A DNA stretch of 43,984 nucleotides, from assembly GCA_903925005.1 (NCBI GenBank), contig CAIYDX010000036.1, positions 1 to 43,984 of the forward strand, given 5' to 3'. Below the pieces are notes generated by a model, which saw only the letters and a list, made by a program, of their open reading frames with translations, did not search any database and was not told the DNA's origin. Positions 4,773-43,353 of the stretch are shown here, piece after piece; position 1 is the stretch's first letter; each line of letters begins with the position of its first letter. This DNA comes from an uncultured Geobacteraceae bacterium (lineage in GTDB: Bacteria > Desulfobacterota > Desulfuromonadia > Geobacterales > Pseudopelobacteraceae). The translations under genes were made by a program, and so were the position numbers.

Positions 4773-4797
4773 TACGTAAATAATTGGAGACAGATTC

Positions 4798-7964: not shown

Positions 7965-7974
7965 GGGAGAAACC

Positions 7975-9846: not shown

Positions 9847-9873
9847 CTGCAATTATTAGACAAAGGTGAGCTG

Positions 9874-22922: not shown

Positions 22923-24371
22923 TCACTGAAGTTCATAATAACTATTTGATCCCAGGCGTTGAACTTTTAATAAGTTGGTAGTTCCAGTGTCTGACAATGG
23001 GCTTCCCATTGTTATTACAACGACATCTCCCTTAGACAGAACACCAGCAGAAAGAACAGCTTCTTCCACAGAACGAATCTGCGATTCAGTATCACCTTTA
23101 ATCTCAACCTGGATAGAACGTACACCAGCGTAAAGAGCAAGCCGTCTTCGGACAGCTTGTGAAGGCGTAACCGCAAATATAGGGAGGGCCGGACGATATT
23201 TTGATACTAAGGCAGGCGTGCTCCCAGTCTGGGTGAATGCCAGAATTGCTGAAGCATTGATACCTTCGGCAACTCGGCAGGCAGCTTGCCCTATTGCTTC
23301 GGTAAGTCTCGGCAAGCCATTGTGTTCCGAAATCGGCTGAAAAACTCGATCATTGAGTTGAGGGTCATTCTCGATGTCGCGAGCCACGCTCACCATAACT
23401 AAAACAGCTTCTTTTGGGTATTTTCCAGAAGCAGTTTCTGCTGACAGCATTATTGCATCTGTGCCATCAAGAATGGCGTTAGCCACATCAGACGTTTCAG
23501 CGCGGGTTGGCCTGGGATTCCCCACCATGCTTTCCAACATTTGGGTTGCGGTTATAACCGGTTTGCCTGCTGCATTGCATTTTCGAATTATCTGTTTTTG
23601 AATAAGCGGTACTTTCTCAGGCCTGATTTCAACCCCCAGATCTCCCCTCGCCACCATGATTCCATCTGATGCATCAAGGATGGAATCGAAATTGACTACA
23701 GCCTCAGGCTTTTCGATCTTGGAGATGATGCGGATATCACTACCCATTGCCGAAAGAATCTGTTTTAACTCAAGGACATCTGAAGCCTGACGTACGAAAG
23801 AAAGTGCTAAATAGTCCAGATCTTCCTTCACGCAGAATTCGAGATCCTCTCGATCTTTTTCCGTTAGCGCAGGAGCTGACACCTCTACCCCAGGAAGGTT
23901 GATTCCTTTACGATCCTTGAGAGTACCGCCTATTATTACCCGGCACCTGACATCCGGGCCATGAACGCCAAGAACCTCCAATTCCAAGAGTCCATCGTCC
24001 AAAAGAATCCTATCACCGCTCCTTACATCGTTTGGCAATTCACGATAGATCGTCGGAATAATGTCACCCTCACCTAGAGCATCGCTTGTAGTGATGGTTA
24101 CTTCGCGGCCAGTAACTAGTTCCATGGCGCCCCCTTTCATAAGGCCGGCACGGATCTTTGGCCCTTGTAGATCGCCAAGGATAGCTACAGATTGTTGTCT
24201 ACGATTCGAAAGCTCTCTGATTCGCTTGATTATGACAGCCTTACCGTCAAGGCCTCCGTGAGAAAAGTTAAGACGAAAAACGTCAACACCAGCTTCCATA
24301 AGTTCATTAAGCATTTCTTCCGACTCGCTTGCCGGACCAACAGTAGCTACAATTTTAGTTCTACGGAACAT
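22923..24371 (-). CDS. pyk: pyruvate kinase
   Basis: A 482-aa enzyme making pyruvate and ATP from phosphoenolpyruvate. KIVATVGPASES and VFRLNFSHG sit at the N-terminus. SKIEKPEAV holds the catalytic Lys, and MVARGDLGVEI the metal-binding acidic residue. ATQMLESM and DGTDAIMLSAETASGKYP follow. The C-terminal domain (about 360-482) is the effector-binding one. AGGAG lies six bases before the ATG. It heads the lower-glycolysis block and is preceded by the compound operator at 24455-24492. Confidence 0.97.
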   Translation of the reverse strand: MFRRTKIVATVGPASESEEMLNELMEAGVDVFRLNFSHGGLDGKAVIIKRIRELSNRRQQSVAILGDLQGPKIRAGLMKGGAMELVTGREVTITTSDALGEGDIIPTIYRELPNDVRSGDRILLDDGLLELEVLGVHGPDVRCRVIIGGTLKDRKGINLPGVEVSAPALTEKDREDLEFCVKEDLDYLALSFVRQASDVLELKQILSAMGSDIRIISKIEKPEAVVNFDSILDASDGIMVARGDLGVEIRPEKVPLIQKQIIRKCNAAGKPVITATQMLESMVGNPRPTRAETSDVANAILDGTDAIMLSAETASGKYPKEAVLVMVSVARDIENDPQLNDRVFQPISEHNGLPRLTEAIGQAACRVAEGINASAILAFTQTGSTPALVSKYRPALPIFAVTPSQAVRRRLALYAGVRSIQVEIKGDTESQIRSVEEAVLSAGVLSKGDVVVITMGSPLSDTGTTNLLKVQRLGSNSYYELQ

Positions 24372-24454
24372 ATCGCTTCTCCTTTTTCAATATACGGGTT
24401 CTCTCTGCATGTTAGTCCGTTATTGACTTTCATCTAAAAAATCTTGCCAACATA

Positions 24455-24492
24455 GTTTCACTATACGGAACAATGTTCCACCCACAATGAAC
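24455..24492 (-). promoter_or_regulatory. compound operator upstream of pyk
   Basis: Read on the + strand: GTTTC-N7-GGAAC, then three bases, then GTTCC-N9-GAAC. This is the same 38-bp architecture as upstream of the carboligase-like gene (38431-38468), with 27 of 38 bases identical. It lies 83 bases before the pyk start there, and 89 in the other case. A TATAGT (24460-24465 on the - strand) inside it could be a -10 box. IclR-family regulators often bind such repeated palindromes. Confidence 0.65.
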
Positions 24493-24500
24493 AAAAATCC

Positions 24501-25202
24501 TTAGATGCCGAGGCGGATCAAGAAGTATGGTATAAAGAAGGGAGCAAACTGCGAGGTAATTATTGCTGCAAGCACCATCGCGACTCCCGACATAGCTCCC
24601 TGTGTTTCTCCTTCCATCAAGGCAACAGTCGTACCCATTGCATGAGCCGCCGTGCCTAAAGCCACTCCTCGAGCCATAGGATCCTTAATTTTAAACAGAG
24701 AAAGAGCTCCCGGTCCTATTGTTGAACCTATTATTGCAGTAGCAACTACGAAAGCAACAGCAAGTGAAGGATCTCCACCAGTTATTTTAGCAATTTCGAT
24801 AGCAATAGGTGCGGTTACAGATTTAGGAGCCAAGGATATCAATATGTTTTGTGGCAGTGCCGCCAATCGGCCGAGCAAGAGAACCGCCACAATAGTACTT
24901 AGAGACCCCATCGTAATACCTAGTAGAAGCATAAGACTATTTTTTTTCACTAACTCTCTTTGATTATAAAGAGGCAGAGCAAGTGCCACCGTGGCAGGGC
25001 CGATCAGCGATGTCATTATATCCTTGGCAGGCTGGTAATCTGCAAAAGTATAATTGCAAGATAGTAGTACCCCTATGACTATAACCGCACTGACAAATAC
25101 AGGATTCAAAAAAGAATATTTGTATCGCTCATAGAGGCGACGACTAAGCAAGTAAGAGCAGACAGTTATTACCACTGAAAATATCATAGTTAGATTCATC
25201 AT
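24501..25202 (-). CDS. lrgB: LrgB/CidB-family membrane protein
   Basis: About 233 residues from the ATG at 25202, which overlaps the lrgA stop (ATGA). A longer in-frame start upstream would lie inside lrgA and is rejected. Many hydrophobic helices are seen. Family blocks are IGPATVALALPLYNQRE, ISLAPKSVTAPIAIEIAKI, FVVATAIIGSTIGPG and GVALGTAAHAMGT. LrgAB was first described as a murein-hydrolase modulator. Later work identified bacterial LrgAB-type pairs as pyruvate carriers and the plant LrgAB fusion PLGG1 as the plastid glycolate/glycerate transporter. Its place after glycolate-oxidase-like genes favours a transport role here. Confidence 0.9.
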   Translation of the reverse strand: MMNLTMIFSVVITVCSYLLSRRLYERYKYSFLNPVFVSAVIVIGVLLSCNYTFADYQPAKDIMTSLIGPATVALALPLYNQRELVKKNSLMLLLGITMGSLSTIVAVLLLGRLAALPQNILISLAPKSVTAPIAIEIAKITGGDPSLAVAFVVATAIIGSTIGPGALSLFKIKDPMARGVALGTAAHAMGTTVALMEGETQGAMSGVAMVLAAIITSQFAPFFIPYFLIRLGI

Positions 25203-25564
25203 GGATTTTTCTTTGACTTTCTCATCAGCAGCTGAATAGTTCCTCCCGTAACGATGAGCGCAACAAGAGCACTGAGGGTAAGAATCGTGACGATGGCCAC
25301 TCCGTTTTGGTAAAAAAGGCCACTCCAACTCATCAATCCGACTGAAATTGGAATAAAGAAAAAAGCGAAATGCTTTAGCAAAAGATTTACTGCCTCCTGA
25401 ATGTGGACCGGCTTTATAATTTCGGCCATTAACAGAATGAAAAGCAGAATCATGCCGACGACGTTGCCAGGAAGGTGAAGATGAAGTCTAGCAACAAGCT
25501 GGGTGCCAGCCTGAAAAACGAGCCAAAGGATCGTTGTCTGCCAAACTAACCTGACCCAAATCAT
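25199..25564 (-). CDS. lrgA: LrgA/CidA-family membrane protein
   Basis: About 121 residues if started at MIWVRLVWQ (25564), close to the family norm. An upstream ATG at 25642 would add 26 residues without hydrophobic character. Neither has a strong ribosome site. Four membrane helices include the family signature GTQLVARLHLHLPGNVVGMILLF, and FFFIPISVGLMSW follows. It forms a complex with LrgB. The gene lies directly after the cupin gene in the same run, so it is probably part of the oxidase/acid-sugar operon. Confidence 0.87.
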   Translation of the reverse strand: MIWVRLVWQTTILWLVFQAGTQLVARLHLHLPGNVVGMILLFILLMAEIIKPVHIQEAVNLLLKHFAFFFIPISVGLMSWSGLFYQNGVAIVTILTLSALVALIVTGGTIQLLMRKSKKNP

Positions 25565-25654
25565 CAAAAAGAACGCTCTATGTAGCAATTTTCGGCAACT
25601 ATATGAAACTTTACATCTTGTCTCTGGTTCCACGAAATGCATATCACTTTGATC

Positions 25655-26008
25655 TTAGCTGTCATGCTGCATACGATGAATTTCAATCGGTACGGGTGCC
25701 GCAACACCTACAAAAACAAAACGCCCGCAGCCAATATTCCGCATACCATGAACTTGACCAGCTTTTGCAAGGACAGCCATGGATTTATTGATTTCCGCAG
25801 TTTCGCCATTACCCTGAGAATAGAGACCTTCACCTTCCAGTATAATCCAAACGTCATCAGCGTTTGGGTGAGTGTGGAGAAACACTTCTTGTTCTGGTTC
25901 AAGACACCACATTACCGCAAGCGTTTTATCGGTTTCATAAATAGCTACTTTTTGTGGAGAATCTGAAAAATGCTCCATTTCCCGTAGGTCATAAATACGC
26001 TGTTCCAC
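25655..26008 (-). CDS. single-domain cupin protein
   Basis: The GTG at 26008 is chosen because AGGAGG lies four bases before it; an ATG at 26035 in frame has no such site. The 117-aa product carries a cupin metal site: FLHTHPNADDVWIILEGEG (two His and one Glu), then the later His in KAGQVHGMRN. Small cupins in sugar-acid operons are often isomerases or epimerases, or bind the substrate. The gene is 23 bp after the glcD-like gene. The reaction cannot be assigned. Confidence 0.8.
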   Translation of the reverse strand: MEQRIYDLREMEHFSDSPQKVAIYETDKTLAVMWCLEPEQEVFLHTHPNADDVWIILEGEGLYSQGNGETAEINKSMAVLAKAGQVHGMRNIGCGRFVFVGVAAPVPIEIHRMQHDS

Positions 26009-26031
26009 AGTTCCTCCTATGCCAAAGCAGT

Positions 26032-27432
26032 TCAATGTGCATGAGTTGCAGAGACAAGATCGAAGATTTTACCTTGATTCAATTTGTTCTGGGGATCAAA
26101 ACCTCTTTTAATCATCCTAAAAGAATCAATAGCCGCCGGACAGAATTCAAGATTAAGGTATTCTTTCTTCAATATGCCGATACCATGTTCGCCGCTCATA
26201 GTACCACCGAGATCGAGCGCAGCACGTACCATATCAATTTCCGCAGCATGAACACGATGAACCTCTTCTTCGTTTCTCTCATCAAAGAGCACCAGGGGAT
26301 GGAAATTGCCATCTCCTGCATGGGCAAGTATTCCGATGAGAAGATCGTACTTTTTAGCGCAATCTAGGATAGCCTTAACCATGGCAGAGAATGCACTTCT
26401 AGGAACGGTGATATCCTGTAGAGAGTAAGACGGACGCCTTCTTCCTACTGAACCGATAACGATCCTTCTGGCCAACCACAATTTCTCAACCTCTGCTTCA
26501 TTAGAGGCGACCTTGAAATCTCTTGATTTAGAATTGATGCAAATATCACGTATCAAGTCTACCTGTTCATCAAGATCGATGTCGTAACCATCTACTTCGA
26601 TTATGAGCAAAGCTCCTGCATCCCTAGGCAGTCCAATTCCAACATGTTCATCTGCAGTATTTATAAGCAAATTGTCTATCATTTCAAGGGTCGTAGGAAT
26701 GATCCCAGCGGCCACTATTCGAGAAACCGTCTGAGAAGCTTCTTCTACTTCATTGAAAATTGCTAGCATTGTCCTTTTAGCGAAAGGCTTAGGGATGATA
26801 CGCAGATTTACCTTGGTTACCAAACCAAGTGTGCCCTCAGAACCAACCAAAATCCTGGTTAGATCGTAGCCATATTCGCTATTAAAGTTATTCCCGCCGG
26901 TCTCGATGACCTTTCCATTGGGGAGGACAACTTCCAAACCGAACACATAATCTCGTGTGACACCGTATTTAAAGCAACGAGGCCCGCCTGAGCATTCGGC
27001 AACGTTACCGCCAATTGTAGAAGCTTTATAACTGGCAGGATCAGGAGGATAGTAAAAACCAACCTTTTCCAGTTCGACCTGTAAGTCGTAGTTAACAACC
27101 CCTGGTTCAACCGTGGCAATTAAGTTGTCCGTATCAATTTTTAGAATTTTAGTCATCCGACTGAAGCAAATGACAATACTCTGCTGGTTTGCAAGACTTC
27201 CGCCACTCAAATTCGTTCCAGCTCCCCTTGGAACAAAAGGAATATTAATTCCATTTAGATACTTAACTATATTTACAACATCTTCCGTGCTATTAGGAAA
27301 AACTATTGCCAATGGCAAAAGGGAAATCAGAGTGGCATCATAACCATACGCAACAAGATCTGCCTGCTGTGTGACCACATTCTTTTTGCCAAGCATCTTG
27401 GCAAGTTTAGTGTTAATCTCTTTACTCAACAT
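26032..27432 (-). CDS. glcD: FAD-linked 2-hydroxyacid oxidase/dehydrogenase, GlcD-like
   Basis: Starting at 27432 (AGGAGG seven bases upstream) gives 466 residues. The N-terminal FAD-binding fold shows PFVPRGAGTNLSGG, VEPGVVNYDL, ASTIGGNVAECSGGPRCFKYG and GSEGTLGLVTKV. The C-terminal half has AHAGDGNFHPL (metal-binding His) and SGEHGIGILKKEYL, both hallmarks of catalytically competent GlcD and D-lactate dehydrogenases. It oxidises glycolate, D-lactate or a related 2-hydroxy acid and passes electrons through the Fe-S partner. That partner is encoded upstream in the same run (34246-35538). Confidence 0.9.
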   Translation of the reverse strand: MLSKEINTKLAKMLGKKNVVTQQADLVAYGYDATLISLLPLAIVFPNSTEDVVNIVKYLNGINIPFVPRGAGTNLSGGSLANQQSIVICFSRMTKILKIDTDNLIATVEPGVVNYDLQVELEKVGFYYPPDPASYKASTIGGNVAECSGGPRCFKYGVTRDYVFGLEVVLPNGKVIETGGNNFNSEYGYDLTRILVGSEGTLGLVTKVNLRIIPKPFAKRTMLAIFNEVEEASQTVSRIVAAGIIPTTLEMIDNLLINTADEHVGIGLPRDAGALLIIEVDGYDIDLDEQVDLIRDICINSKSRDFKVASNEAEVEKLWLARRIVIGSVGRRRPSYSLQDITVPRSAFSAMVKAILDCAKKYDLLIGILAHAGDGNFHPLVLFDERNEEEVHRVHAAEIDMVRAALDLGGTMSGEHGIGILKKEYLNLEFCPAAIDSFRMIKRGFDPQNKLNQGKIFDLVSATHAH

Positions 27433-27446
27433 GTCTAAACCTCCTT

Positions 27447-28772
27447 TCATCTCCCGATCAATGATTCACCTGGTATCAATGTACCTTTTGGGTCAAACTG
27501 GTTCCTGATACTTGTTATTATTCCGGCCATATCTTCCCACATTTCATTTTCATTGCTGGATTGACAACGTAGTCGCTGCCCCAGTGATCCAGAGATACTA
27601 CCGCCAAGACTGGTTGACAATTTGCTAATTCCAAGAAGTGTTTCGTCTATATCTGACAAAGAACTTTCAGAAAGAACAAGTAAGATGTTGCCATTCAGTG
27701 CATGGACAATAAGGCTGGGACTAAGATCAAGATTCCCAACAATCGCTTCGAGTCCTTTCAGGGCTTCATGAAGCTTTGACTGACCGACCATGATATCAAT
27801 TGTAGAGAAGGAAGAATCGCTATTGAGCTTTTCCTTCAAAGCAAGCCAATTGTTCCAGATAGCGTCATTTTGATCCGGATCCTCTGCAACCATGATGTCA
27901 ATGGCACCACCAAGCTTAAAAATAGATGCAATTTCCTGGCTAAGATGTTTTGTAGAAGGCTTAAAACCTTCAATGTCAGCCATGACAAGGTATTTGGGTG
28001 TTTCAGTAAAAATCCCACTCGTAATATCGTGAGCCATCGCTGAGTTCAGAAGATTAAGCCTAGCTGTGTATATTCTACGAGAGAACAAGGTGCTAATGCA
28101 TTTGCAAGCATCCGTATAATTCAAGAAACTGCCTAAGACTGTTTTTTGGGCTGCCGGTAGAGGCAGAAGCTTTATCAATACTTTGGTGATAATCCCTAAA
28201 GTACCTCGGCTTCCGACAACAAAATGAATCATGTCATAGCCAGCCACATTCTTGATCGTCTTGCTACCGACATTTAGTACTTCGCCATTAGGCAAAACCA
28301 TTTCAAAGCCTAGGATATATGTCCTCGTCGGACCGTAGTTAAACGACCGGGAATCCAAAATTCCATTGGCAAAACAACCTCCTATGGAACTAGTCAATCC
28401 CTTGAATGGTTCTGGAGGAAAATATAATCCCTCGGCAGCAAGCTTCTCCTGAAATTCTTTGTGATTCACTCCGGGCTCAACTGTAGCCACAAGATTTTCA
28501 TGATCAATCTCGATAATCCGACTCATGCGAGCCATGCTTATTGCAATGCCGTCTTTCAAACCTTTGGTGACTACAGTATTTCCACCGACTGCAACCTTTA
28601 CTGCACATTTATCCGCAATTTTGATTAGCTTAACTACGTCTGAGGTATTTTCTGGGAATACAAGAGCCAGAGGCGCCTCGTTTCCCTTTAAATATCCAGC
28701 CATCGATTCAGGAATGACAATGGACTGATTTCCCATCAAAGCCTGAATTTCCTTAACTACCTGTTTTTTCAT
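27447..28772 (-). CDS. glcE: second FAD-binding subunit, GlcE/GlcD-like, with altered motifs
   Basis: A 441-aa protein of the same FAD_binding_4 fold as the next gene. It has VEPGVNHKEF, SSIGGCFANGILDSRSFNYGP, KNVAGYDMIHF and GSRGTLGIITKVLIKLLPLP. It lacks the PRGAGTNLSGG pyrophosphate loop (here VAVGGNTVVTKG), the HAGDGNxHP metal site (here VHALNGNILL) and the GEHGIG motif (here GSISGSLGQR). It is therefore probably a structural or electron-transfer partner, like GlcE, although longer than E. coli GlcE. GAGGAG precedes the ATG. It ends 14 bp before the glcD-like start. Confidence 0.82.
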   Translation of the reverse strand: MKKQVVKEIQALMGNQSIVIPESMAGYLKGNEAPLALVFPENTSDVVKLIKIADKCAVKVAVGGNTVVTKGLKDGIAISMARMSRIIEIDHENLVATVEPGVNHKEFQEKLAAEGLYFPPEPFKGLTSSIGGCFANGILDSRSFNYGPTRTYILGFEMVLPNGEVLNVGSKTIKNVAGYDMIHFVVGSRGTLGIITKVLIKLLPLPAAQKTVLGSFLNYTDACKCISTLFSRRIYTARLNLLNSAMAHDITSGIFTETPKYLVMADIEGFKPSTKHLSQEIASIFKLGGAIDIMVAEDPDQNDAIWNNWLALKEKLNSDSSFSTIDIMVGQSKLHEALKGLEAIVGNLDLSPSLIVHALNGNILLVLSESSLSDIDETLLGISKLSTSLGGSISGSLGQRLRCQSSNENEMWEDMAGIITSIRNQFDPKGTLIPGESLIGR

Positions 28773-28804
28773 ATTAGACTCCTCTCTTTGGAAATCTTAA
28801 CAAG

Positions 28805-30035
<1,231 letters not shown>

Positions 30036-30045
30036 TTATTCTGAC

Positions 30046-30945
30046 TTATTGGCCGCCCATGACTTCAATACCGGCAAGCTTTTCCATCACCCGTATCACC
30101 GCAGACATATCCTGATCCCCATAACCAGCTAAACTACCCTCAAGGCAAACCTGCTGAGCAAGAGTTCCTATGAGCATGCGTACATTGTAATTATGTGCCA
30201 ATTGACTGAGGAGCTTCATATCCTTATTTAAAAGGTTCAAAGTGAACGCGGCAGTAAAATCACGCTTAAACACGAAATTCGGAATGCTCCGGCGTAGGAT
30301 TGCACTATCTCCAACAGAATTTGAAAGAACGTTATAAGTCTGAGTCGGTTCAAGCCCAATTTTGGCCGCAAGAACCATTGCTTCAGCCACAGCACACTGT
30401 GTAATGCCTACCAACATCTGGTTGATAAGCTTCATCTTATTTCCGCTACCAGATGGGCCGACATGGGCGATATTCTTCCCCAGATGTTTTAATATGGGTA
30501 AAGCCCTCTCGAATGCCCCAGGGTCCCCACCAACCATGATAGACAAAGTACCGTTTTCGGCTCCGGTCACACCGCCACTTACAGGAGCGTCCAAAAAGAA
30601 AACACCTTTTGCACCACACTGTTCGTTGATGATTATCGAAGCATCTGGAGCTATCGTACTGTGGTCAATGATGAGCATTCCGGGCTTAGCACTTTCTAAA
30701 ACTCCAGCCAAGCCTGACACGACCGTCGAAACATCTTTTCCCTCGGGAAGGCATAAATGCAGAATGTCAACATTGGCAGCCATTTCTGCAGGAGTTTTGC
30801 AGGGAATAGCCTTTTTCAATGCCAGTTCTTCGACTTGTTTAAGGCTTCTGTTATGTACTAGTACAGAATAACCTGCTTTTAGCAGATTAGCCGCCATGGG
30901 CTTCCCCATTTTTCCCAAACCGATAAAACCAACCCTTGATGACAT
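30046..30945 (-). CDS. NAD(P)-dependent beta-hydroxyacid dehydrogenase (LtnD/GarR-like)
   Basis: The ATG at 30945 (seven bases after AGGAG) is preferred to the one at 30951. About 299 residues: a Rossmann start VGFIGLGKMGKPMAANLLKAG, the substrate-binding DAPVSGGVTGAENGTL, and the catalytic Lys in GSGNKMKLINQ. This is the 3-hydroxyisobutyrate dehydrogenase superfamily, which includes tartronate-semialdehyde reductase and the L-threonate (LtnD) dehydrogenases that work with DUF1537 kinases. A kinase of that family precedes it by 29 bp. Both roles suit the cluster: reducing tartronate semialdehyde to glycerate, or oxidising a tetronate. Confidence 0.88.
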   Translation of the reverse strand: MSSRVGFIGLGKMGKPMAANLLKAGYSVLVHNRSLKQVEELALKKAIPCKTPAEMAANVDILHLCLPEGKDVSTVVSGLAGVLESAKPGMLIIDHSTIAPDASIIINEQCGAKGVFFLDAPVSGGVTGAENGTLSIMVGGDPGAFERALPILKHLGKNIAHVGPSGSGNKMKLINQMLVGITQCAVAEAMVLAAKIGLEPTQTYNVLSNSVGDSAILRRSIPNFVFKRDFTAAFTLNLLNKDMKLLSQLAHNYNVRMLIGTLAQQVCLEGSLAGYGDQDMSAVIRVMEKLAGIEVMGGQ

Positions 30946-30974
30946 CCACATGCTCCTTTGGAAATAGTTCCGCT

Positions 30975-32438
30975 TTACTTGATGCGGCTGATAGATCGAT
31001 TAAACAGCAAAATAATTTGAGCAAGTGTATCTGATTGCCCCACATTACCGGGAAAGACAACATAAGACATCCCTGGAAACTTTGTTTCTGGTCCCAATTT
31101 CCACACTGGTATTCCAGGGTAAACCTGTCCGAGAACAAGTGATGCTTTCACGCCAAGCGCATCTGTTGCCAAGTCGTTAGATGTAATACCCCCCTTAGCA
31201 ATCAAAAACCGGGGTTGAATGTTAAGTAGTCTTACAATTTCGACCAATGCTGCAGACACTGATCTCCCAATCGATAGATTTCCAGTTGCACTCTCCTTAG
31301 TAACCAGTGTACGGCTGGTGTAAATCATTACATCAATGCCATCTTTTATGCTTTTATTTACGGTGTCTATTATTTGGGCCAATATAAAAGGTCTTCTATT
31401 TTCATCAAGGAGCAAATCGACATTGATCTCTAATGGCAAGATAGAGGACTCATTTAAAACTGCCTTGATCTGAGCGCTGGTTTTCCCCACATAAGAACCG
31501 ACAACAACCAAACCACCGGTGCGAGAATTGTCAGGCATTTCCATCTCATCACATGTGAGATATTGACGATCTTCAACAGCACCGCGCACTTTTACAAACG
31601 AGGCACTAGAGCGGACGAGAAAACGCTTTCCGGCCTCTTCGGATTTAAGAAGTCCGAGAACAAAGATTTCCAAATCTCTGTAAGAGGCAGCATTAACGAC
31701 CGCCCTTTTCCCGTTATTCATTTGCATCAGAATTCTAACAACATGCTCTGAACCACCATTTCGCAAATCGGAAAGTCCGATGCTCACGACATCTTTAGCT
31801 AAAACCTTGCCGCAGGTTTTTTCCTCGATATACAGACCGAGGTGCGAATTCTGATAGCCAAAAACGGCATCGCGAGCAAATTCTGTCTCTCCAGCGGGGA
31901 CCAGTTCTTCACTCTCTTGGACGTAGTGAACGTCATTAATGGTATAACGACCTCCCTCGAAGAATGCCGGTATAAGGAGCTGACCATCAAACTGGTGGCC
32001 AGTTTCTTTCCCCAACACATCTTCCAGAACATCGAGCTCGTCTGGGTAGTGTCCTCGCAGAGTAGAATCACCACGACTGATCACAGAAAACTCAATTCCT
32101 AATTCCCTAGCAGCTTGGCAGAGGTTTAGCCCTATTTCCTCGTTGATCGCCCTGGCCTTCTCTTTCAGGAAGCTGCGAGTATTGGTAAGGATGAAAAAAA
32201 GTGGTTCCGGACGAAGAAAGGCTGTTTTCAATTCATCTACTTGCCAACTGGTGAGAACATAAATCCCATGAACTGTCTGGCAACCGGTCGGATCATCATC
32301 TAAGACGACAGTCTTCCTACAAGAGCGACTAACAGCCGTTTTTATCTCTGAGAATATGTTGTCCTCAGTCCTTTCTTTAGGCTGAAGGGCAAAGAGATTT
32401 TGTTTAAGTATCCGACCGGTTTGATTTGCCCCGCACAT
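30975..32438 (-). CDS. four-carbon acid sugar kinase family protein (DUF1537, OtnK-like)
   Basis: The start at 32438 follows GGAGG by five bases; an ATG at 32450 overlaps that site. About 487 residues with the two-domain layout of the family. The N-terminal substrate domain has VVLDDDPTGCQTVHG, TNTRSF and SRGDSTLRGHYPDEL; the C-terminal nucleotide domain has VVGSYVGKTSAQ, FLIAKGGITSND and FPGNVG. Known members phosphorylate 3-oxo-tetronate, D-threonate or erythronate. Together with the dehydrogenase and aldolase downstream this forms an acid-sugar module. The exact sugar acid cannot be read from sequence. Confidence 0.88.
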   Translation of the reverse strand: MCGANQTGRILKQNLFALQPKERTEDNIFSEIKTAVSRSCRKTVVLDDDPTGCQTVHGIYVLTSWQVDELKTAFLRPEPLFFILTNTRSFLKEKARAINEEIGLNLCQAARELGIEFSVISRGDSTLRGHYPDELDVLEDVLGKETGHQFDGQLLIPAFFEGGRYTINDVHYVQESEELVPAGETEFARDAVFGYQNSHLGLYIEEKTCGKVLAKDVVSIGLSDLRNGGSEHVVRILMQMNNGKRAVVNAASYRDLEIFVLGLLKSEEAGKRFLVRSSASFVKVRGAVEDRQYLTCDEMEMPDNSRTGGLVVVGSYVGKTSAQIKAVLNESSILPLEINVDLLLDENRRPFILAQIIDTVNKSIKDGIDVMIYTSRTLVTKESATGNLSIGRSVSAALVEIVRLLNIQPRFLIAKGGITSNDLATDALGVKASLVLGQVYPGIPVWKLGPETKFPGMSYVVFPGNVGQSDTLAQIILLFNRSISRIK

Positions 32439-32465
32439 GCTAGCCTCCATTAACTAATCAGTCTG

Positions 32466-33413
32466 CTATTTCATACCTTTTTTCGCTGCGATTGCCTCTT
32501 TTACTGCCTCGACAATTTTGTCGGAGGTGAGTCCGAGAGCTTCAAGTAGTTCAGGCATTTTACCTGAAAGTCCAAATCTGTCCTGAACACCCACCATTCT
32601 CATTGGAACTGGGTGATTTTTTACAAGAAGTTCGGCAACTGCACTACCCAAGCCGCCAATAACAGAATGTTCTTCAGCGGTAACAACTGCACCAGTTCTT
32701 GCCGCTGCCTCAAGAATGCATTCATCATCAAGTGGTTTGATAGTATGGACATTGATCACGTCAACCGTAATTCCAAGCTTTGCGAGTTCATCGGCAGCTT
32801 CGAATGCCTTGGAAAGCATAATGCCATTGGCAATAATAGTTGCATCATTACCTTTGCGATAAACATTCGCCTTACCAATAACAAAGGGATCGTTTTCACC
32901 AGTTACAATCGGGGTGGGCATACGGCCAATTCGTATGTATGCAGGACCAACATGTTCGGCCAGTGCACGAACTGCCTTTGCTACTTCGTTCCCATCAGCA
33001 GGATCGATGACTGTCATTCCTGGTAACGCTCTCATCAGGGCAACATCCTCGAGAGGAAGATGTGTAGGGCCTTCTTGCCCCGGTGATGTTCCGATATTAT
33101 GTCCGATTATTTTGACGTTCTGTTTTGCATATGCGACTGAGATCCTGATTTGATCCCAAGCATTTCCAGTTAGAAAGTTTGCATAGGCGTTAACAAAAGG
33201 AATTTTACCTGCAAGGGCAACACCCGCACCGGTCCCAACTAGATCAGATTCGGCAATACCAATATTAAAGAATCGATTTGGGAATTCCTTTGCAAAAAGG
33301 TTAGTCATAGTCGCCTTGGAACAATCTGCATCCAGCACAACGATCTCTTTATTTTCGACTCCCAACTGCAGCAAAGCTTTTCCATATGCCTCACGAGGCG
33401 CTATTGTATTCAT
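32466..33413 (-). CDS. transketolase, C-terminal subunit
   Basis: A 315-aa protein equal to the pyrimidine-binding and C-terminal domains of transketolase. It has FNIGIAESDLVGTGAGVALAG (with the conserved Glu), FVNAYANFLTGNAWDQIR, TSPGQEGPTHLPLEDVALMR, and the C-terminal TAEEHSVIGGLGSAVAE. It pairs with the separately encoded N-terminal half just upstream; split transketolases are common in anaerobes. The complex moves a C2 ketol unit between sugar phosphates. AGGAG lies ten bases before the ATG. Confidence 0.93.
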   Translation of the reverse strand: MNTIAPREAYGKALLQLGVENKEIVVLDADCSKATMTNLFAKEFPNRFFNIGIAESDLVGTGAGVALAGKIPFVNAYANFLTGNAWDQIRISVAYAKQNVKIIGHNIGTSPGQEGPTHLPLEDVALMRALPGMTVIDPADGNEVAKAVRALAEHVGPAYIRIGRMPTPIVTGENDPFVIGKANVYRKGNDATIIANGIMLSKAFEAADELAKLGITVDVINVHTIKPLDDECILEAAARTGAVVTAEEHSVIGGLGSAVAELLVKNHPVPMRMVGVQDRFGLSGKMPELLEALGLTSDKIVEAVKEAIAAKKGMK

Positions 33414-33414
33414 A

Positions 33415-34242
33415 TTATATGAGCTCCTTTAATGCGATTTCCAATTGCTCGTTGTTAGGAGTTATGCCATGCCAGCCAACTTGGTTCTCCATATAGGAGA
33501 CACCTTTCCCTTTGATAGTTGAAGCAAGAAGAACTGAAGGCTTCCCTTTGGTATTCATTGCCGATTTAAAGGCTGCATATACTTTTTCCAGATTGTGTCC
33601 ATCTACTTCGACGGTATTCCAGCCAAAGGAATCGAATTTGGCCTTGAGGTTCCCGAGCGACTTGACTTCGTCTACTGGACCATCCAGACATAGGCGGTTC
33701 ATATCTACAATGGCACATACATTGTCCAATTTGTAATGGGCTGCTGTCATTGCGGCTTCCCATAGTTGCCCTTCATGAAGCTCTCCATCTCCGATGAGAA
33801 CGTAGGCTCTGCTATCGGTCCCATCAAGCTTAGCAACCAACGCAACTCCATTCGCGACTGACAGCCCTTGTCCCAGCGCACCAGAGGACATATCGACGCC
33901 TGGTGTGCATTGGCTACTTGGATGGCCCTGCAGTCGGCTCCCGAGTTTCCGAAGAGTTATAAGTTCCTCTTCTGGAAAGAAACCCCGTTCAGCAAGTGCC
34001 GTATAGAAAACCGGTGCTGCATGTCCCTTGGACAGGAAGAAGTAATCTCGTTCTTTCCAATTGATGTGGTCGGGATCAACACGCATAATTTTAGTGTAAA
34101 GAACCGCCATGATTTCCACTGCAGACAAGGACCCACCAGGATGGCCGCTACCTGCTTGATTGAGCATCATGAGAATCTGTCTGCGCATCTTTTTACATAT
34201 TTCAGCCAACTTATTAAAATCAGGTTCAGTATAATGTCCCAC
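33415..34242 (-). CDS. transketolase, N-terminal (ThDP-binding) subunit
   Basis: A 275-aa protein from a GTG start eight bases after GGAGG. It carries GSGHPGGSLSAVEIM, FFLSKGHAAPVFYT, LGSRLQGHPS and the ThDP motif that starts GDGELHEGQLWEAA and ends in VDMN. This is the pyrophosphate domain of a split transketolase; the partner begins two bases after its stop. Inside this oxidation/aldolase run it could handle glycolaldehyde- or pentose-type intermediates. Housekeeping pentose interconversion is also possible. Confidence 0.93.
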   Translation of the reverse strand: MGHYTEPDFNKLAEICKKMRRQILMMLNQAGSGHPGGSLSAVEIMAVLYTKIMRVDPDHINWKERDYFFLSKGHAAPVFYTALAERGFFPEEELITLRKLGSRLQGHPSSQCTPGVDMSSGALGQGLSVANGVALVAKLDGTDSRAYVLIGDGELHEGQLWEAAMTAAHYKLDNVCAIVDMNRLCLDGPVDEVKSLGNLKAKFDSFGWNTVEVDGHNLEKVYAAFKSAMNTKGKPSVLLASTIKGKGVSYMENQVGWHGITPNNEQLEIALKELI

Positions 34243-34245
34243 GAT

Positions 34246-35538
34246 TTATTCCTCCCTTTTCTTGATTACGGAATCACTATCTTCAAATGCTTGGGCAAGC
34301 AGATCGGCAATATGAACGACCTTCTGTTTTTTACCTGCCAGTCTTAAAGACCCCTGAATTCGGTGGAGGCAAGCAGGGCATCCTGTAATGACAGTCTCTG
34401 CAGCGGTATCGTCTATATTGTTAACTTTTTGTCTGGAAATGTTTTCAGCAAATTCGTGGAAATATCCCTGAAACAATCCAGCGGCGCCGCAACAACGATC
34501 TGCCTCTTTCATCTCTACATACTGAAGACGAGGTATACTTTTCAGGATCTTTCGCGGTTGTTCCCTGACACCCTGTCCACGGGACATATGGCATCCGTCA
34601 TGATATGTCACCTTCTTATGAATGGCTTTAAGCCCAGCATATTCCAGATCCATGTTAGCTACGACAAACTCAGAGAAATCGAATACCTTTGAACTGAATT
34701 TTTGTACTTCATCCAGGAAATCCGGTTCATCAGAAAAAAGGTGTACATATTCCTTCTTCAACATCGCACCACATGAAGCGCAACCGGTGATAACCGCGTC
34801 AAATTCTGCAAATTGTTTAATTGTTTTCCGCGCATTTTTCTTAGCAGTTTCGTAGTCTCCGTAAGCATGTTGCGGAGTACCACAACAAACCTGATCCTTG
34901 GGGATGATGACATTGAATTTCCCTTTATTGAGGACCTTTACGATCGAATGTCCAGTGCCTGGAAGTGTATGATTGATAAAACATCCGACATAGAAACCAA
35001 GACGTTTTTTCGCGTCAGGAACAGTGTTAACCTCTGTTGCCTGGTCTAAAAAGCTCACCCCACTAATCGGCATACCTTTTACATCAATTCCGCGAAATCC
35101 ATCAAAACCTTCAATCTTGCTTATTATACTTCCGCATACAGCCCTAGCGGCCTTGAAGGCCATCTTGCGTTTATTCGGATTTGCCAAGACATTCAAAGCA
35201 ATCCGTTTACTGATTGGCAGACCTTTCTCTATCGCCAGATATCGTCGGGCTGCCAACACAAGCTCGTGAGGCTTAACGCCGCTCGGGCAGGTGACTGAGC
35301 ACTCCTGACACAATAGGCAGCTGTTTATAGCGTCGAGGAATTCCGGATCTTCATCGGACAGTGTTCCGTTTTGGACTGATTTAATAAGTCGATTCCTACC
35401 CCTAGGTGCATACGCTTCATTCAAGTGAGTTTTGTAAACCTTGCAGGACGTCTGACAAAATCCACATTTATTGCACTTATAGAGGGCTTCTTCAAAGTCG
35501 GTAAGAAACGTTTTTTTCGGTTTATCGTCATTTGACAT
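34246..35538 (-). CDS. glcF: Fe-S electron-transfer subunit, GlcF-like (CCG-domain heterodisulfide-reductase type)
   Basis: The ATG at 35538, eight bases after GGAGG, gives 430 residues. Two 4Fe-4S sites lie near the N-terminus (CNKCGFCQTSCK and CLLCQECSVTCPSG). Two CCG domains follow: CCGTPQHAYGD with GCASCGAM, then YHDGCHMSRGQG with RCCGAAG and GCPAC. This is the partner of GlcD-type flavoproteins, taking electrons on to quinone or another carrier. The gene lies some seven genes before the glcE and glcD genes in the same run. It ends three bases before the transketolase start. Confidence 0.92.
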   Translation of the reverse strand: MSNDDKPKKTFLTDFEEALYKCNKCGFCQTSCKVYKTHLNEAYAPRGRNRLIKSVQNGTLSDEDPEFLDAINSCLLCQECSVTCPSGVKPHELVLAARRYLAIEKGLPISKRIALNVLANPNKRKMAFKAARAVCGSIISKIEGFDGFRGIDVKGMPISGVSFLDQATEVNTVPDAKKRLGFYVGCFINHTLPGTGHSIVKVLNKGKFNVIIPKDQVCCGTPQHAYGDYETAKKNARKTIKQFAEFDAVITGCASCGAMLKKEYVHLFSDEPDFLDEVQKFSSKVFDFSEFVVANMDLEYAGLKAIHKKVTYHDGCHMSRGQGVREQPRKILKSIPRLQYVEMKEADRCCGAAGLFQGYFHEFAENISRQKVNNIDDTAAETVITGCPACLHRIQGSLRLAGKKQKVVHIADLLAQAFEDSDSVIKKREE

Positions 35539-35552
35539 GGTGTTGTCCTCCA

Positions 35553-36470
35553 TTAAACTTTGGCCCAAGCCTCGCGAAGCGTCCTTTTTGCATTAGCAAC
35601 TATTAGATCAGAATCCTCACCCGGAGTCGGCTTGACTTCGAATGCAACGACTTTTAAATCGCCATCATCGTTCAGGTAGCCGATATTTCTAAGTACACGT
35701 AAGAACTCTGTTAGCTCCTGGACATCCACTTCTCCTCCAGGAAATCCGAAACGGGGATGTTGATCCCCAAACGCAGGGTTACTATTATCGTTTAAAACGC
35801 AATTGCCAATATGGACATGGACAAGATGGTCCTTAGCCAAAGTTAGGCTCTGGATCGCAGTTTCACCTTTAAGAGGCAAGTGACTTAAATCAATCATCAA
35901 TCCGAAATTCGGACAAGTGCGTCTTACAGCTTCAGAAACTTTAACAGCATCTGCAGTCGATCCAATTAGACATTTCTTGTCAATATCACGATCAAAAACC
36001 TCCATAACTACATCGATCCCGTATTTTTCTGATGCTACTTTGCAAATATCTATTAGAGATTCAACCAGCAGATCAATTGCTGAAGCTCTTTTCTCTACTC
36101 CGGGGTCCGGGCCACTAAGAACTGCGAGTTTTTTCGCGCCTAATTCATGTGCCTGTGGAAGCAGATCTTTAATAACTGTAATTGCATGTCCTCTTTCCTG
36201 TGAGTCAAAAGAGTTCAGGTTAAGTTTGCCCATCAATTGTACTGGCTGGCACCCAAACCCTACTGTCATGCGAGATTGCTCTAGGACCGATGCAACTTGT
36301 TTTCTGATTTCAGCGTCATTGATGCGAGTTACTTCGATTGCACCGAAAAAATCGTCTTTAGCAATTTTCGAAATTGTCTCTAGAATAGGACCTTCGCCTG
36401 CTATAGTCGATGGGTATGCCATGAACTGAACAATCCCTACTTTTATTGTTGAATGCAAATCTTTGCTCAT
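35553..36470 (-). CDS. xylose-isomerase-like TIM barrel protein (sugar isomerase/epimerase)
   Basis: 305 residues of the AP-endonuclease-2/xylose-isomerase-like family. Metal ligands are apparent as Glu in VVMEVFDRD, Asp and His in MIDLSHLPL, His in VHVHIGN and Glu in VAFEVKP. The family includes hydroxypyruvate isomerase (Hyi) and 2-oxo-tetronate isomerase (OtnI). Both fit the neighbours: Hyi goes with glyoxylate carboligase and tartronate-semialdehyde reductase, OtnI with DUF1537 kinases. GGGGG lies seven bases before the ATG. It heads the close-packed run after a hairpin that separates it from the carboligase-like gene. Confidence 0.85.
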   Translation of the reverse strand: MSKDLHSTIKVGIVQFMAYPSTIAGEGPILETISKIAKDDFFGAIEVTRINDAEIRKQVASVLEQSRMTVGFGCQPVQLMGKLNLNSFDSQERGHAITVIKDLLPQAHELGAKKLAVLSGPDPGVEKRASAIDLLVESLIDICKVASEKYGIDVVMEVFDRDIDKKCLIGSTADAVKVSEAVRRTCPNFGLMIDLSHLPLKGETAIQSLTLAKDHLVHVHIGNCVLNDNSNPAFGDQHPRFGFPGGEVDVQELTEFLRVLRNIGYLNDDGDLKVVAFEVKPTPGEDSDLIVANAKRTLREAWAKV

Positions 36471-36513
36471 AACTTATCCCCCTTTATTTATTTTGTTATC
36501 TTGTTGGTATTAA

Positions 36514-36561
36514 AGCGACCAATCCGGTAGATTTTTTTCAATCCTATTCGGATTGGTCGCT
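36514..36561 (-). terminator. long perfect stem-loop, terminator or attenuator
   Basis: Thirteen-base perfect arms AGCGACCAATCCG / CGGATTGGTCGCT enclose a 22-nt loop between the carboligase-like gene and the isomerase gene. On the - strand the stem is followed only by TTTAATA. The first arm can instead pair locally (CAATCC-GAATA-GGATTG), followed by seven A residues, so two exclusive folds exist. This suits partial termination or mRNA processing rather than a simple strong terminator. Confidence 0.7.
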
Positions 36562-36571
36562 ATCCAGCCTT

Positions 36572-38341
36572 TTAAACAGTTTCTAAAACACCGGCTATAC
36601 TTCCGTCTCTTGACACTGAGCAAACTGCAGTTGGATCTACTAGCACTTCAATTAGATAAGGGCGTTTTGATGCAAAAGCCCGGCTGAGAGCCTCTTTGAT
36701 CTGTTCAGGCCGTTCAACCAATTCTGCTGCAACTCCCATTCCTTTAGCTGTCATTACAAAGTCGATCCCACGGTTATGGCCAACTTCGAGGTTTTCGTAA
36801 TCCAATTCAGTCGATAGCCACCTGCGATCAAAGAACAAATTCTGCTGTTGGCGTATCAGACCAAGCAGAGAGTTATTAAGGAGAAATACAACTATAGGAA
36901 TATTGAACTTTGCGGCAGTCGCCAGGTCTTGCAACGACATTCCTAAACTGCCATCACCAAGTAGGTTAACAGCTTGGCACTCCGGCTTGGCAAGCTTGGC
37001 CGCCATAGCTGCACCGAGTCCCCATCCCATTGTTCCTGCGCGGCCTGTAATCATGTATGTTCTTGGCTCATACATTTCCAACAATTGGGACGACCAAATC
37101 TGGCTGATCCCACAGTCGTGCGATACGATAGCGTCACGATCAAGGAATTTACGCAGTTCGTGAATTGCATGCTGTGGCTTCATTGGAATATCATCAAACT
37201 CTAACTGCCGAGCAAAATTTGGTTTATCCTCAACCAATTCATTAATCCTCGCATTAGTCTCGGTAGCTGGAGTATAATTTGACTCTTTTAGATGAGCATT
37301 AAGCTCTTTCAAAAAGCCTTTAAGATCGGCTGCAATTGCCAGATCAGTCTTTACATGTCGATTGAGCTCATTTGAATCCATATTGACATGGATGAACTTG
37401 CGGCCTTTAGTGTAGATATCGATAGCGCCAGTGCCACGGTCTCCAAAACGTCCTCCAAGGTTCACCACGAGATCAGAATCAAGGAATGCCTTGTTCCCAA
37501 GCGGGCTATTGCATATCGTACCGACCATTCCTGCAAAGAGTTCATGATCATTTGGAAATGCATCTTTTCCCATTAGTGTGCAAACAACAGGGATACGCAG
37601 GGCCTCTGCCAGCTCCCTGAACTCAGCGGCTGCATCGGCAAGAACAATACCACCGCCTACATAAAGCACAGGGCGTTGACTTGACTTAAATATTTCGAGG
37701 AATTTTCCTATTTCCTCTTTGCTAGCACTAGGTTTAATTTCTTGTTCTTCGGCAAGCAGCTCGTCAAAGTCTACCTCAACCATCCCCTTCTGAGCATCCA
37801 GACAGAGGTCAAGAAGAACCGGTCCTTTGCGACCGGTAGTCGCCAACCGCCAAGCCTCTTTTATGATGCCAGGAAGATCTTCCGCTTTTTTTACCAGGAA
37901 TGCTCCCTTGGACACATGGGCCGCCATTTCGGTTACCGGAGCTTCCTGAAATGCATCCTTACCAACAAAAGCTGATGGTGCTTGCCCTGTGAGGGCAATG
38001 AGCGGGATTGCATCACCGTATGCGCCGTAGAGACCTGTTATAAAGTTGGTAGCTGCTGGCCCTGAAGTACAGGCACATACACCAACCTTACCGGATACTC
38101 GGGAATAACCATCTGCCATAAATATAGCCATCTGTTCATGACGAACTACATACGACTCGATTTTGCCACTTTCAAGAACAGAATCATAAAAAGGAAGAAT
38201 CGCAGCACCGGGAATCCCGTACAACTGTGTAACACCTTTTGCCTCAAGGAATCGAACCAGGAGCTTGGCCCCCGTCATTTTTTCTTTGCCTTGACCTGCT
38301 TTAGTTTTTTCATCTTCCGTCTCAGTTCCCCACAGTGCCAT
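36572..38341 (-). CDS. ThDP-dependent carboligase (glyoxylate carboligase / acetolactate synthase-like)
   Basis: 589 residues with three ThDP-enzyme domains. The N-terminal part reads QLYGIPGAAILPFYD and VVRHEQMAIFMADGYSR; SGPAATNFITGL follows. The C-terminal ThDP motif starts LGDGSLGMSLQDLA and ends with LLNNSLLGLIRQQQ. The GIPGAA loop, the NN-xLGLIRQ-Q segment and the C-terminal end (SVSRDGSIAG) resemble glyoxylate carboligase. However, Gcl lacks the canonical Glu, and here the RHEQ Glu is kept, as in acetolactate synthase. Gcl would join two glyoxylates to tartronate semialdehyde. AGGAG lies seven bases before the ATG, and complex operators sit upstream. Confidence 0.85.
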   Translation of the reverse strand: MALWGTETEDEKTKAGQGKEKMTGAKLLVRFLEAKGVTQLYGIPGAAILPFYDSVLESGKIESYVVRHEQMAIFMADGYSRVSGKVGVCACTSGPAATNFITGLYGAYGDAIPLIALTGQAPSAFVGKDAFQEAPVTEMAAHVSKGAFLVKKAEDLPGIIKEAWRLATTGRKGPVLLDLCLDAQKGMVEVDFDELLAEEQEIKPSASKEEIGKFLEIFKSSQRPVLYVGGGIVLADAAAEFRELAEALRIPVVCTLMGKDAFPNDHELFAGMVGTICNSPLGNKAFLDSDLVVNLGGRFGDRGTGAIDIYTKGRKFIHVNMDSNELNRHVKTDLAIAADLKGFLKELNAHLKESNYTPATETNARINELVEDKPNFARQLEFDDIPMKPQHAIHELRKFLDRDAIVSHDCGISQIWSSQLLEMYEPRTYMITGRAGTMGWGLGAAMAAKLAKPECQAVNLLGDGSLGMSLQDLATAAKFNIPIVVFLLNNSLLGLIRQQQNLFFDRRWLSTELDYENLEVGHNRGIDFVMTAKGMGVAAELVERPEQIKEALSRAFASKRPYLIEVLVDPTAVCSVSRDGSIAGVLETV

Positions 38342-38382
38342 TTTCGTTCTCCTTTCCTCTTTTTAGTTTTTCATCTTCATTT

Positions 38383-38485
38383 GTTCCGGCATGCGGAACG
38401 CGGTTTCATTACTACCGGAAAAAAATTTCTGTTCCACTATTTGGAACATGGTTCCATAATAATTGAACCATAAAGTTAATGTCAA
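38383..38485 (-). promoter_or_regulatory. promoter with three palindromic operators upstream of the carboligase-like gene
   Basis: On the - strand TTGACA (38480-38485) and TATTAT (38456-38461), 18 bp apart, form a sigma70-type promoter. Palindromes in and after it are GTTCCGGCATGCGGAAC (38383-38399), GTTCCACTATTTGGAAC (38431-38447) and TGGTTC-N10-GAACCA (38449-38470). The last covers the -10 box, which suggests repression. The block 38431-38468 has the same layout as the pyk operator. The adjacent IclR-family protein is the natural candidate regulator. Confidence 0.75.
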
Positions 38486-42519: not shown

Positions 42520-43353
42520 CTAGCATTCTCTTTGTTTTTTGTAGGAGGACTGATTCCGGTCATTTTTATTTTCTGTCCGGCTAAATCCAAGTATGTTGGA
42601 TAAGCGTGAAGCACTCTGGCAGAGAAGCGGAATTAACTCATCTTTCATGCGAGTTCCAACCAGACGCATCTCCGGCCCCAATATACTCAGAGCACCAATA
42701 ATTGTTCCATGTGAGTCGAAGACAGGCGCTGCAATCTCCATTACTCCAGAGTCATATTCCTGATTATCAATTGCGTAACCAAGCTGTGCTACATTTTTCA
42801 GTTCGCTTTGCAACACACTAAGATCCGTGATTGTTCGGGATGTGAAACCGATTTTTTCTGACCTCAAAAGTAGATCCAACTGTTTTTGCGGATACATGAA
42901 AGCCAATTGCGCTCTACCTGCAGCAGTACAATACAACGGTCGACTGCTACCTACCTGTTTCTTAACACGTACGGTTAAGTCTGATTCCACACCGTCGAGA
43001 AAATAGGTATAGCCGTCCTTAATGATCGAGAAATAGCAAGTTTCATGGGACTGCTGTTTGAGATCGATCAGAAAAGGACGCGCATAGTCAACATAATCTA
43101 TTAGTCTAGTAGCTACTTGTCCAAGTTCCATTGGTTTTATTCCTAGCGTGTATTTACCGGTTGAATTATTCTTTTTGATGTATTTTTTTTCCTCCAATGT
43201 AGCAACTATACGAAATACAGCATTTTTTGTAAGATTCATGCGTTGACTCAGATCGGTAATACCAAGCTCGGCATTGCCTACCTGGAACTGATCGATCAGA
43301 TCCAACGCATGTGACACCGTCTGAATAAAGTATTTTCCTGCAACTGCTTTCAT
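42520..43353 (-). CDS. IclR-family transcriptional regulator
   Basis: A 277-aa protein. The N-terminal winged HTH (about 10-70) reads ALDLIDQFQVGNAELGITDL, then SQRMNLTKNAVFRIVATLEE. The C-terminal IclR effector domain has GKYTLGIKPMELG, RPLYCTAAGRAQLAF, YAIDNQEYDSGVMEIAAPVF and GALSILGPEMRL. Family members often sense glyoxylate, pyruvate or related acids and bind several palindromes near their targets. It lies upstream of all genes of the - strand catabolic locus and is my candidate for the GTTCC-N7-GGAAC operators. AAAGGA lies five bases before the ATG. A basic C-terminal tail (ENKNDRNQSSYKKQREC) extends past the domain. Confidence 0.93.
   Translation of the reverse strand: MKAVAGKYFIQTVSHALDLIDQFQVGNAELGITDLSQRMNLTKNAVFRIVATLEEKKYIKKNNSTGKYTLGIKPMELGQVATRLIDYVDYARPFLIDLKQQSHETCYFSIIKDGYTYFLDGVESDLTVRVKKQVGSSRPLYCTAAGRAQLAFMYPQKQLDLLLRSEKIGFTSRTITDLSVLQSELKNVAQLGYAIDNQEYDSGVMEIAAPVFDSHGTIIGALSILGPEMRLVGTRMKDELIPLLCQSASRLSNILGFSRTENKNDRNQSSYKKQREC

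Follow-up and report, generated by a model that had tools for sequence, protein, structure and literature searches.

The stretch of DNA analysed here, to which we refer as the window, comprises 43,984 nucleotides of a contig (C36) from an uncultured Geobacteraceae bacterium and carries three copies of an operator-like element located in front of two genes. This element, which we term a three-box site, follows the pattern GTTYC-N7-GGAAC-N3-GTTYC. Site A (24455..24479, forward strand, an exact match of the form GTTTC-N7-GGAAC-N3-GTTCC) precedes an open reading frame (ORF) on the reverse strand that we read as the pyruvate kinase gene pyk (22923..24371) and that has matches in all 35 of the 35 genomes searched. 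Site B (38431..38455, forward strand, exact) precedes the gene of a thiamine diphosphate (ThDP)-dependent carboligase resembling glyoxylate carboligase (gcl; 36572..38341, reverse strand; N, M and C domains of TPP_enzyme), and a third site (38383..38407, forward strand, exact to the GTTYC form, with GTTTC as its final box) is found 48 bp from site B. An earlier note on this DNA had described the elements in front of both genes as an identical 38-bp operator, composed of the same boxes plus N9-GAAC. Both 38-mers are present on the forward strand, reaching from 24455 to 24492 and from 38431 to 38468, but the term 'identical' is too strong since only 27 of their 38 bases agree. The start codon of pyk (24371) and that of the carboligase gene (38341) are indeed 83 and 89 bases away, and also confirmed are a promoter-like TTGACA-18-TATTAT sequence of the latter (38456..38485, reverse strand, 11 of 12 matches), whose -10 box abuts site B, and a further palindrome at 38383-38399, which is moreover part of the full third site.

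Downstream of the carboligase follow, in order, genes encoding a hydroxypyruvate isomerase-like TIM barrel (hyi; 35553..36470; AP_endonuc_2, with a weak match of 28 bits to TIGR03234, whose cut-off is 353 bits), a glcF-like Fe-S subunit (34246..35568; CCG and Fer4 domains, 160 of the 333 bits of the GlcF model), a split transketolase-like pair (33415-34242 and 32466-33413; NCBIfam transketolase matches below cut-off), a DUF1537 kinase, a garR-like protein, an aldolase and two glcD-like FAD oxidases (27447-28772 and 26032-27450; FAD_binding_4 and FAD-oxidase_C, 490 and 215 of the 568 bits of the GlcD model), with all coordinates referring to the reverse strand. Most genes of this run score below NCBIfam cut-offs and the carboligase itself fails those of both Gcl models, with 434 of 711 bits for TIGR01504 and 508 of 791 bits for NF008431. 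Its sequence contains RHEQ, and classical Gcl proteins are not known to carry the Glu of this motif. It is thus from the neighbouring genes that the name gcl-like is suggested. The gene content, together with that of the contig C198 described below, suggests a route in which glycolate is taken up and oxidized to glyoxylate, followed by carboligation, the conversion of glycerate to 2-phosphoglycerate and the action of enolase, pyruvate kinase and pyruvate:ferredoxin oxidoreductase (PFOR).

Both the rarity of the three-box sites and their location beyond the window are illustrated by a scan of the whole genome (G000, 5.416 Mb in 419 contigs, completeness 94.88%), as the earlier note had proposed. 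The exact pattern GTTYC-N7-GGAAC-N3-GTTYC occurs five times where 0.035-0.042 copies are expected from base composition, with three copies residing in the window and the other two in front of a permease gene on a second contig (C198), where they are accompanied by a third copy with one mismatch at a distance of 48 bp from the nearest exact one. In the form with a final GTTCC, there are four matches in the genome and none for a reversed-pattern control, and with zero to one mismatch eight matches are found compared to two for the controls. When the pattern is slightly relaxed and two mismatches are allowed, the excess disappears (77 versus 65 in controls), and weak matches elsewhere are therefore mostly noise. 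Within the window, up to two mismatches yield four matches, of which one (937-961) is probably a chance occurrence, compared to a mean of 0.29 in shuffled sequences, where four were reached in one of 100 shuffles. Exact copies are confined to the carboligase, permease and pyk genes. Other sites of the genome with one mismatch (on C120, C142 and C205, in surroundings whose gene names are our reading) were judged to be chance matches.

The gene behind the three sites on C198 encodes a lactate/glycolate-type permease of the LctP family (Lactate_perm 563 bits; 553 bits for TIGR00795, whose cut-off is 341), which misses the GlcA equivalog (502 of 1121 bits). The same contig encodes a glycerate kinase (530 bits for TIGR00045, whose cut-off is 168), an acetolactate synthase-type protein and genes that we read as thiG, thiH and ilvN. 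It also harbours a protein of the IclR family, termed IclR-198 (1066-1869), which contains an IclR_C domain (PF01614, 158 bits, cut-off 24) and an IclR helix-turn-helix and aligns over its full length with IclR proteins of known structure. The three operators of the permease gene have a transposase remnant (Mu-transpos_C_2, 30 bits, cut-off 27; C198 as locus L009, 9039-9578) immediately upstream.

The architecture of the sites is shared between both contigs. The 17-bp palindrome of site B has the same letters as its counterpart in the first permease site, and in the sense of the carboligase gene the -35 and -10 boxes are followed by GGAAC-N3-GTTCC-N7-GGAAC, an order that by eye looks alike at the permease gene. 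Relative to their own gene, the pyk, gcl and permease sites are equally oriented. Paired sites are found at several promoters with spacings of 48, 59, 75, 77, 100 or 106 bp. The fourth box of the earlier note (N9-GAAC) is out of register in the window, whereas in two related loci (L025 and L026) it is found at N7, resulting in a 37-bp four-box site with 20 bp between the centres of the tandem palindromes. For operators of the IclR family, alternating boxes that combine GTTYC-(N7)-GRAAC and GRAAC-(N3)-GTTYC have been described, as predicted for 32 orthologous groups, with the centres of tandem palindromes 18-22 nucleotides apart (Suvorova and Gelfand 2021, PMC8222616). The alternating boxes of the sites correspond to both published consensus types, and the four-box form of L025 and L026 fits the tandem spacing and the tetramers described for the family. 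Compared by eye to the published group 1 consensus GTTYCRYW3RYGRAAC, site A agrees in 17 of 17, site B in 16 of 17 and site C in 15 of 17 positions (PMC8222616). The operator class itself is thus already published.

The same features bear on the question whether the palindromes would act as hairpins in the RNA, as part of an attenuator or terminator, rather than as operators in the DNA. Of three terminator-like matches in the vicinity of gcl, two coincide with sites. However, in a comparison of 12 sites a run of T directly follows the hairpin only at site B, with a later one at the first permease site, and the N3 boxes, which are located outside this hairpin, are also conserved. Together with the absence of Rfam matches at gathering scores in the window and the loci L009, L010 and L171, this renders a role as RNA hairpins highly improbable.

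A similar arrangement is found in related genomes. A scan with the carboligase yielded 23 loci, including seven close ones with a sequence identity of 60-81% and 16 distant ones of 28-35% (15 from Lokiarchaea and one from Dehalococcoidia). As the comparison of orthologous upstream regions proposed in the earlier note revealed, the pattern with zero to one mismatch is located directly in front of the carboligase orthologue in six of the seven close loci, whereas L021 shows none. An IclR gene near the carboligase in two of these loci (L020 and L022) encodes an orthologue of IclR-198 (72% and 55% identical) and not of the IclR protein encoded in the window. Across seven whole genomes, proteins of the IclR-198 type (53-73%) are found in the six that bear sites, whereas the best match in the seventh is at 29%, and the same six contain 14 exact sites with none in the seventh and no matches of the control. 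A chance origin of the carboligase and permease sites is rejected on the basis of these relatives in conjunction with the genome counts.

Several observations concern the surroundings of these loci. The run of carboligase, hyi-like, glcF, split transketolase, DUF1537 kinase and two glcD genes is conserved between the window (26032-38341), L020 (10001-20640) and L021 (10001-20122). In the runs of L020 and L021, neither garR nor glycerate kinase was matched by our reference set, and the kinase and transketolase may therefore serve a variant glyoxylate route. In L020 (4468-4569 and 8595-9758), which belongs to the genome G098, two sites precede the genes of a tripartite ATP-independent periplasmic (TRAP) transporter (DctP, DctQ and DctM) beside the orthologue of IclR-198, followed by a gene of the altronate/galactarate dehydratase type. 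Distant relatives of the carboligase (30-35%) are encoded in the 15 Lokiarchaeal loci (L027-L040 and L042).

The relationship between protein and site was further analysed in 73 genomes of a Peptococcaceae-type order (that of G101), where IclR-198-type proteins were called at E-values of up to 1e-65. Of these genomes, 39 encode the protein and 29 contain an exact site, with both present in 24, the protein only in 15, the site only in 5 and neither in 29 (p = 4.6e-5), while the reversed-pattern control shows no such relationship (7, 32, 5 and 29, p = 0.76). Among the 49 site matches in this order, 16 from 12 genomes are located within 6 kb of the gene of an IclR-198-type protein and three of them at a distance of 8-25 bases from its matched start. 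By hand, we assigned 30 of the 49 to genes of a glycolate module or to the regulator itself, including gcl (10 matches in eight operators, two of them read on both strands), a sucC-like CoA-ligase (10), glcF (4), transketolase (3) and the regulator (3). The other 19 matches comprise 10 that adjoin further IclR genes or what we read as genes of solute-binding proteins, and nine elsewhere, one of the latter being about 700 bp in front of a nifJ-like gene and another preceding a gene read as hydroxyacid dehydrogenase. In this manual assignment, a module site is present in 17 of the 39 genomes with the protein but only in one of the 34 without it (p = 6.4e-5).

The sites are rare, are placed at the promoters of carboligase and permease, recur at orthologous genes and are both co-occurring and linked with orthologues of IclR-198. 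We therefore consider it likely that they are three-box operators of IclR-198, which would control a regulon for the use of glycolate and glyoxylate, including the permease with three sites, the carboligase run with two and probably pyk with one. The earlier note had postulated a single dedicated regulator and had proposed as its prime candidate the IclR protein encoded in the window (42520..43353, reverse strand; IclR_C 130 bits). Whereas the regulator would indeed belong to the IclR family and its regulon include the acid-catabolic run, it appears not to be this protein. In its favour, the window protein shares the contig with site B at a distance of 4 kb, the layout of the sites is general to the family, and GTTCC sites adjoin several different IclR genes. 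Unlike IclR-198, which co-occurs with the sites and often neighbours them, it lacks a close orthologue in the six genomes with sites, where its best matches reach 45% in G098 and 30-35% elsewhere. Among 98 genomes of its order, counting G000, 93 contain a match of at least 43% and three an exact GTTCC-ending site. Excluding G000, a relative is encoded in 92 of 97 genomes, 90 of which are devoid of the exact site, and the sites in the remaining two appear accidental, one being located inside a long ORF and the other near no recognised glycolate gene (G022 and G056). The region upstream of its own gene contains no pair of boxes with zero to one mismatch, and its nearest relatives (58-66%) adjoin genes that, in our reading of the ORFs, encode transporters or other proteins with no relation to glycolate. 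Since its recognition helix also differs, we regard binding of the sites by the window protein as unlikely. For the GntR protein, the second candidate of the earlier note, family searches as the only test made revealed nothing in its favour.

The recognition helix further distinguishes IclR-198 (SKSTVHR) from the window protein (TKNAVFR), as it is the only one of the seven IclR proteins in the genome with the motif K-S-x-x-H-R. In an alignment with rows from 30 of 31 orthologue loci, where two of nine paralogue rows (L049 and L053, in a wrong reading frame) were left out, this motif is found in 29 of the 30 orthologues, as HKSTVHR in 28 and SKSTVHR in L043, the exception being HKSTVYR in L046. 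It is also present in four of five IclR proteins beside other GTTCC sites (AKSVIHR, PKSVIHR, PKSVVHR and AKSIIHR), with YKSTIFR as exception. A different IclR protein, either missed in the assembly or among the other five, might in principle bind GTTCC-type sites. The fragmented and incomplete assembly and the presence of other IclR proteins next to such sites would be compatible with this idea, but the remaining five lack the KSxxHR helix and the GGAAC-type sites in G098 share a contig with the orthologue of IclR-198, which makes it improbable.

The variation in the boxes, in turn, might be related to that of the helix. Of the 15 boxes in G000, 13 carry a C (or a G, read on the opposite strand) at the variable position, as do six of nine in G098, the helix residue being a Ser in both genomes, compared to seven of 81 boxes of 27 module sites in the order of G101, where it is mostly a His, and to 29 of 30 boxes of ten other sites with Ala, Pro or Tyr where known. 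We treat this potential coupling of helix and box as a lead and not as a finding. It could be part of a scenario, tentative and in its entirety rather doubtful, where the regulator and the glycolate module would be common to the order of G101 and the lineage of the window (as judged from the Desulfuromonadales-like G098), with box letters and helix residue having changed together (from His to Ser at position 27 and from GTTTC to GTTCC) and the regulon having extended to pyk and perhaps to the synthesis of thiamine, whose derivative ThDP is the cofactor of carboligase, transketolase and PFOR.

Several observations weigh against the assignment to IclR-198 and its extension to pyk. In the order of G101, the exact site is missing in 15 of the 39 genomes with the protein and present in five of the 34 without it, control matches are not rare (13 compared to 49), and the shared ancestry of the genomes causes the p-values to overstate independence. 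GTTCC-type sites also adjoin other IclR genes and their letters alone therefore do not name the protein. A published correlation couples position 27 of the helix with the same base, His being associated with G/C (PMC8222616), which, with the numbering transferred by eye, is opposite to the trend described above. IclR-198 scores below four equivalog cut-offs of NCBIfam (AllR 138 of 406, IclR 151 of 380, BhcR 194 of 350 and KdgR 204 of 275 bits) and its ligand is therefore a guess. Finally, C36 and C198 are not joined in an assembly with a stated contamination of 6.16%, and should they belong to different organisms, the link connecting them would be lost, whereas the one observed in other genomes would persist. 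As for pyk, no promoter-like match was found in front of the gene, and none of 29 other pyk copies fetched was preceded by a site with zero to one mismatch.

It is thus conceivable, though clearly the less probable case, that, among the sites, only that of pyk is a chance match or without effect on the gene. Conversely, it is an exact match where 0.04 are expected per genome, it is located in the intergenic gap (24372-24500) between lrgB and pyk within a series of co-directional genes, and its orientation to the gene equals that of the gcl and permease sites. Since this site was seen in one genome only, its role in the control of pyk is one that we infer. The earlier idea that the acid-catabolic run is joined with lower glycolysis, which lacks backing from the other pyk copies, is partly supported by the presence of a glycerate kinase on C198, with which enolase and pyruvate kinase would form the lower half of one route instead of a second pathway. 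The LrgA/LrgB-like pair just in front of pyk (24501-25642; LrgB model 196 of 250 bits) is perhaps a small-acid transporter.

A site with one mismatch, sharing 22 of 25 letters with the pyk site, precedes a thiC-like gene on another contig (C409 as locus L010; site 1509-1533, gene 151-1560 on the reverse strand), where it directly follows the -10-like box of TTGACG-17-TAATGT in opposite orientation to the gene, and no Rfam match to a TPP riboswitch was found in front of the latter. With its mismatch and reversed orientation the site is weak, and a handful of such matches is expected, as reflected in the two control matches at zero to one mismatch.

The origin of C36 itself is equivocal. The window pyk is 74% identical to that of G079 (from another family of the same order) and 71% to that of G098, compared to 56-59% for most copies of the same genus, 52% for G022 and 58% for a second pyk of the genome (on C173), and the GC content of the window (0.457) contrasts with 0.48-0.54 in most sampled stretches, with 0.41-0.45 in four others. 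The window IclR, in turn, is closest to proteins of the same genus (G007, 66%) and family (G056, 65%). The contig thus appears atypical of its genus with respect to pyk and GC content, which would be compatible with transfer, misbinning or divergence. A region at 2397-11510 was read, from its ORFs without family search, as a type I restriction-modification system with ATPase, peptidase-type helix-turn-helix and PIN-type proteins.

In the proposed mechanism, dimers or a tetramer of IclR-198 would occupy the DNA immediately downstream of the -10 box, and the location of the sites directly behind this box suggests repression by hindering the polymerase. Glyoxylate or another acid of the pathway would release the protein and thus induce uptake and use together, and in some relatives the regulator would also control its own gene. 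The obvious candidate for the signal is glyoxylate, to which AllR, IclR and BhcR respond. Of five residues whose equivalents bind its oxygens, three are by eye kept in IclR-198 (Asp212, Ser239 and Ser241), while Gly160 and Ala161 are changed. In an account of AllR of Escherichia coli and BhcR of Paracoccus denitrificans, AllR binds the gcl promoter and DNA binding decreases with glyoxylate (PMC11323563). Both proteins resemble the proposed system as IclR-family regulators of glyoxylate use, but IclR-198 is below either cut-off, the motif listed for AllR differs and BhcR is an activator, a role that is possible also for IclR-198. KdgR (NF011671), its best NCBIfam match, has a motif of the GAAAC-N3/4-GTTTC kind (PMC8222616). 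However, it acts in the use of pectin and galacturonate, and IclR-198 scores below its cut-off.

With respect to the pathway, the closest account concerns 'Ca. Dichloromethanomonas elyunquensis', a relative of Syntrophobotulus, for which a route proposed from proteomics includes Gcl, Hyi, glycerate kinase, Eno, Pyk and POR, of which Gcl and Pyk show higher abundance on dichloroacetate, whereas the term 'IclR' was not found in the text nor an operator in the passages seen (PMC8092247). The main text of PMC8222616, as far as covered, mentions glyoxylate twice and names no glycolate or carboligase regulon. An IclR-type glycolate/glyoxylate regulon with such an operator was not found in the literature searched, although the supplementary lists of PMC8222616, which were outside the search, may hold it.

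Collectively, the regulon idea of the earlier note was probably right and is now sharpened to glycolate and glyoxylate, whereas its choice of regulator was probably wrong, which changes the choice of the first protein to purify. Glycolate is a common two-carbon acid. It constitutes a large carbon flow from photosynthetic cells (PMC11323563). With a candidate regulator and a clear operator, a glycolate/glyoxylate regulon of anaerobe-type bacteria becomes directly testable, and the natural series of GTTTC and GTTCC boxes, with His or Ser in the helix, may serve to test how IclR proteins read their boxes.

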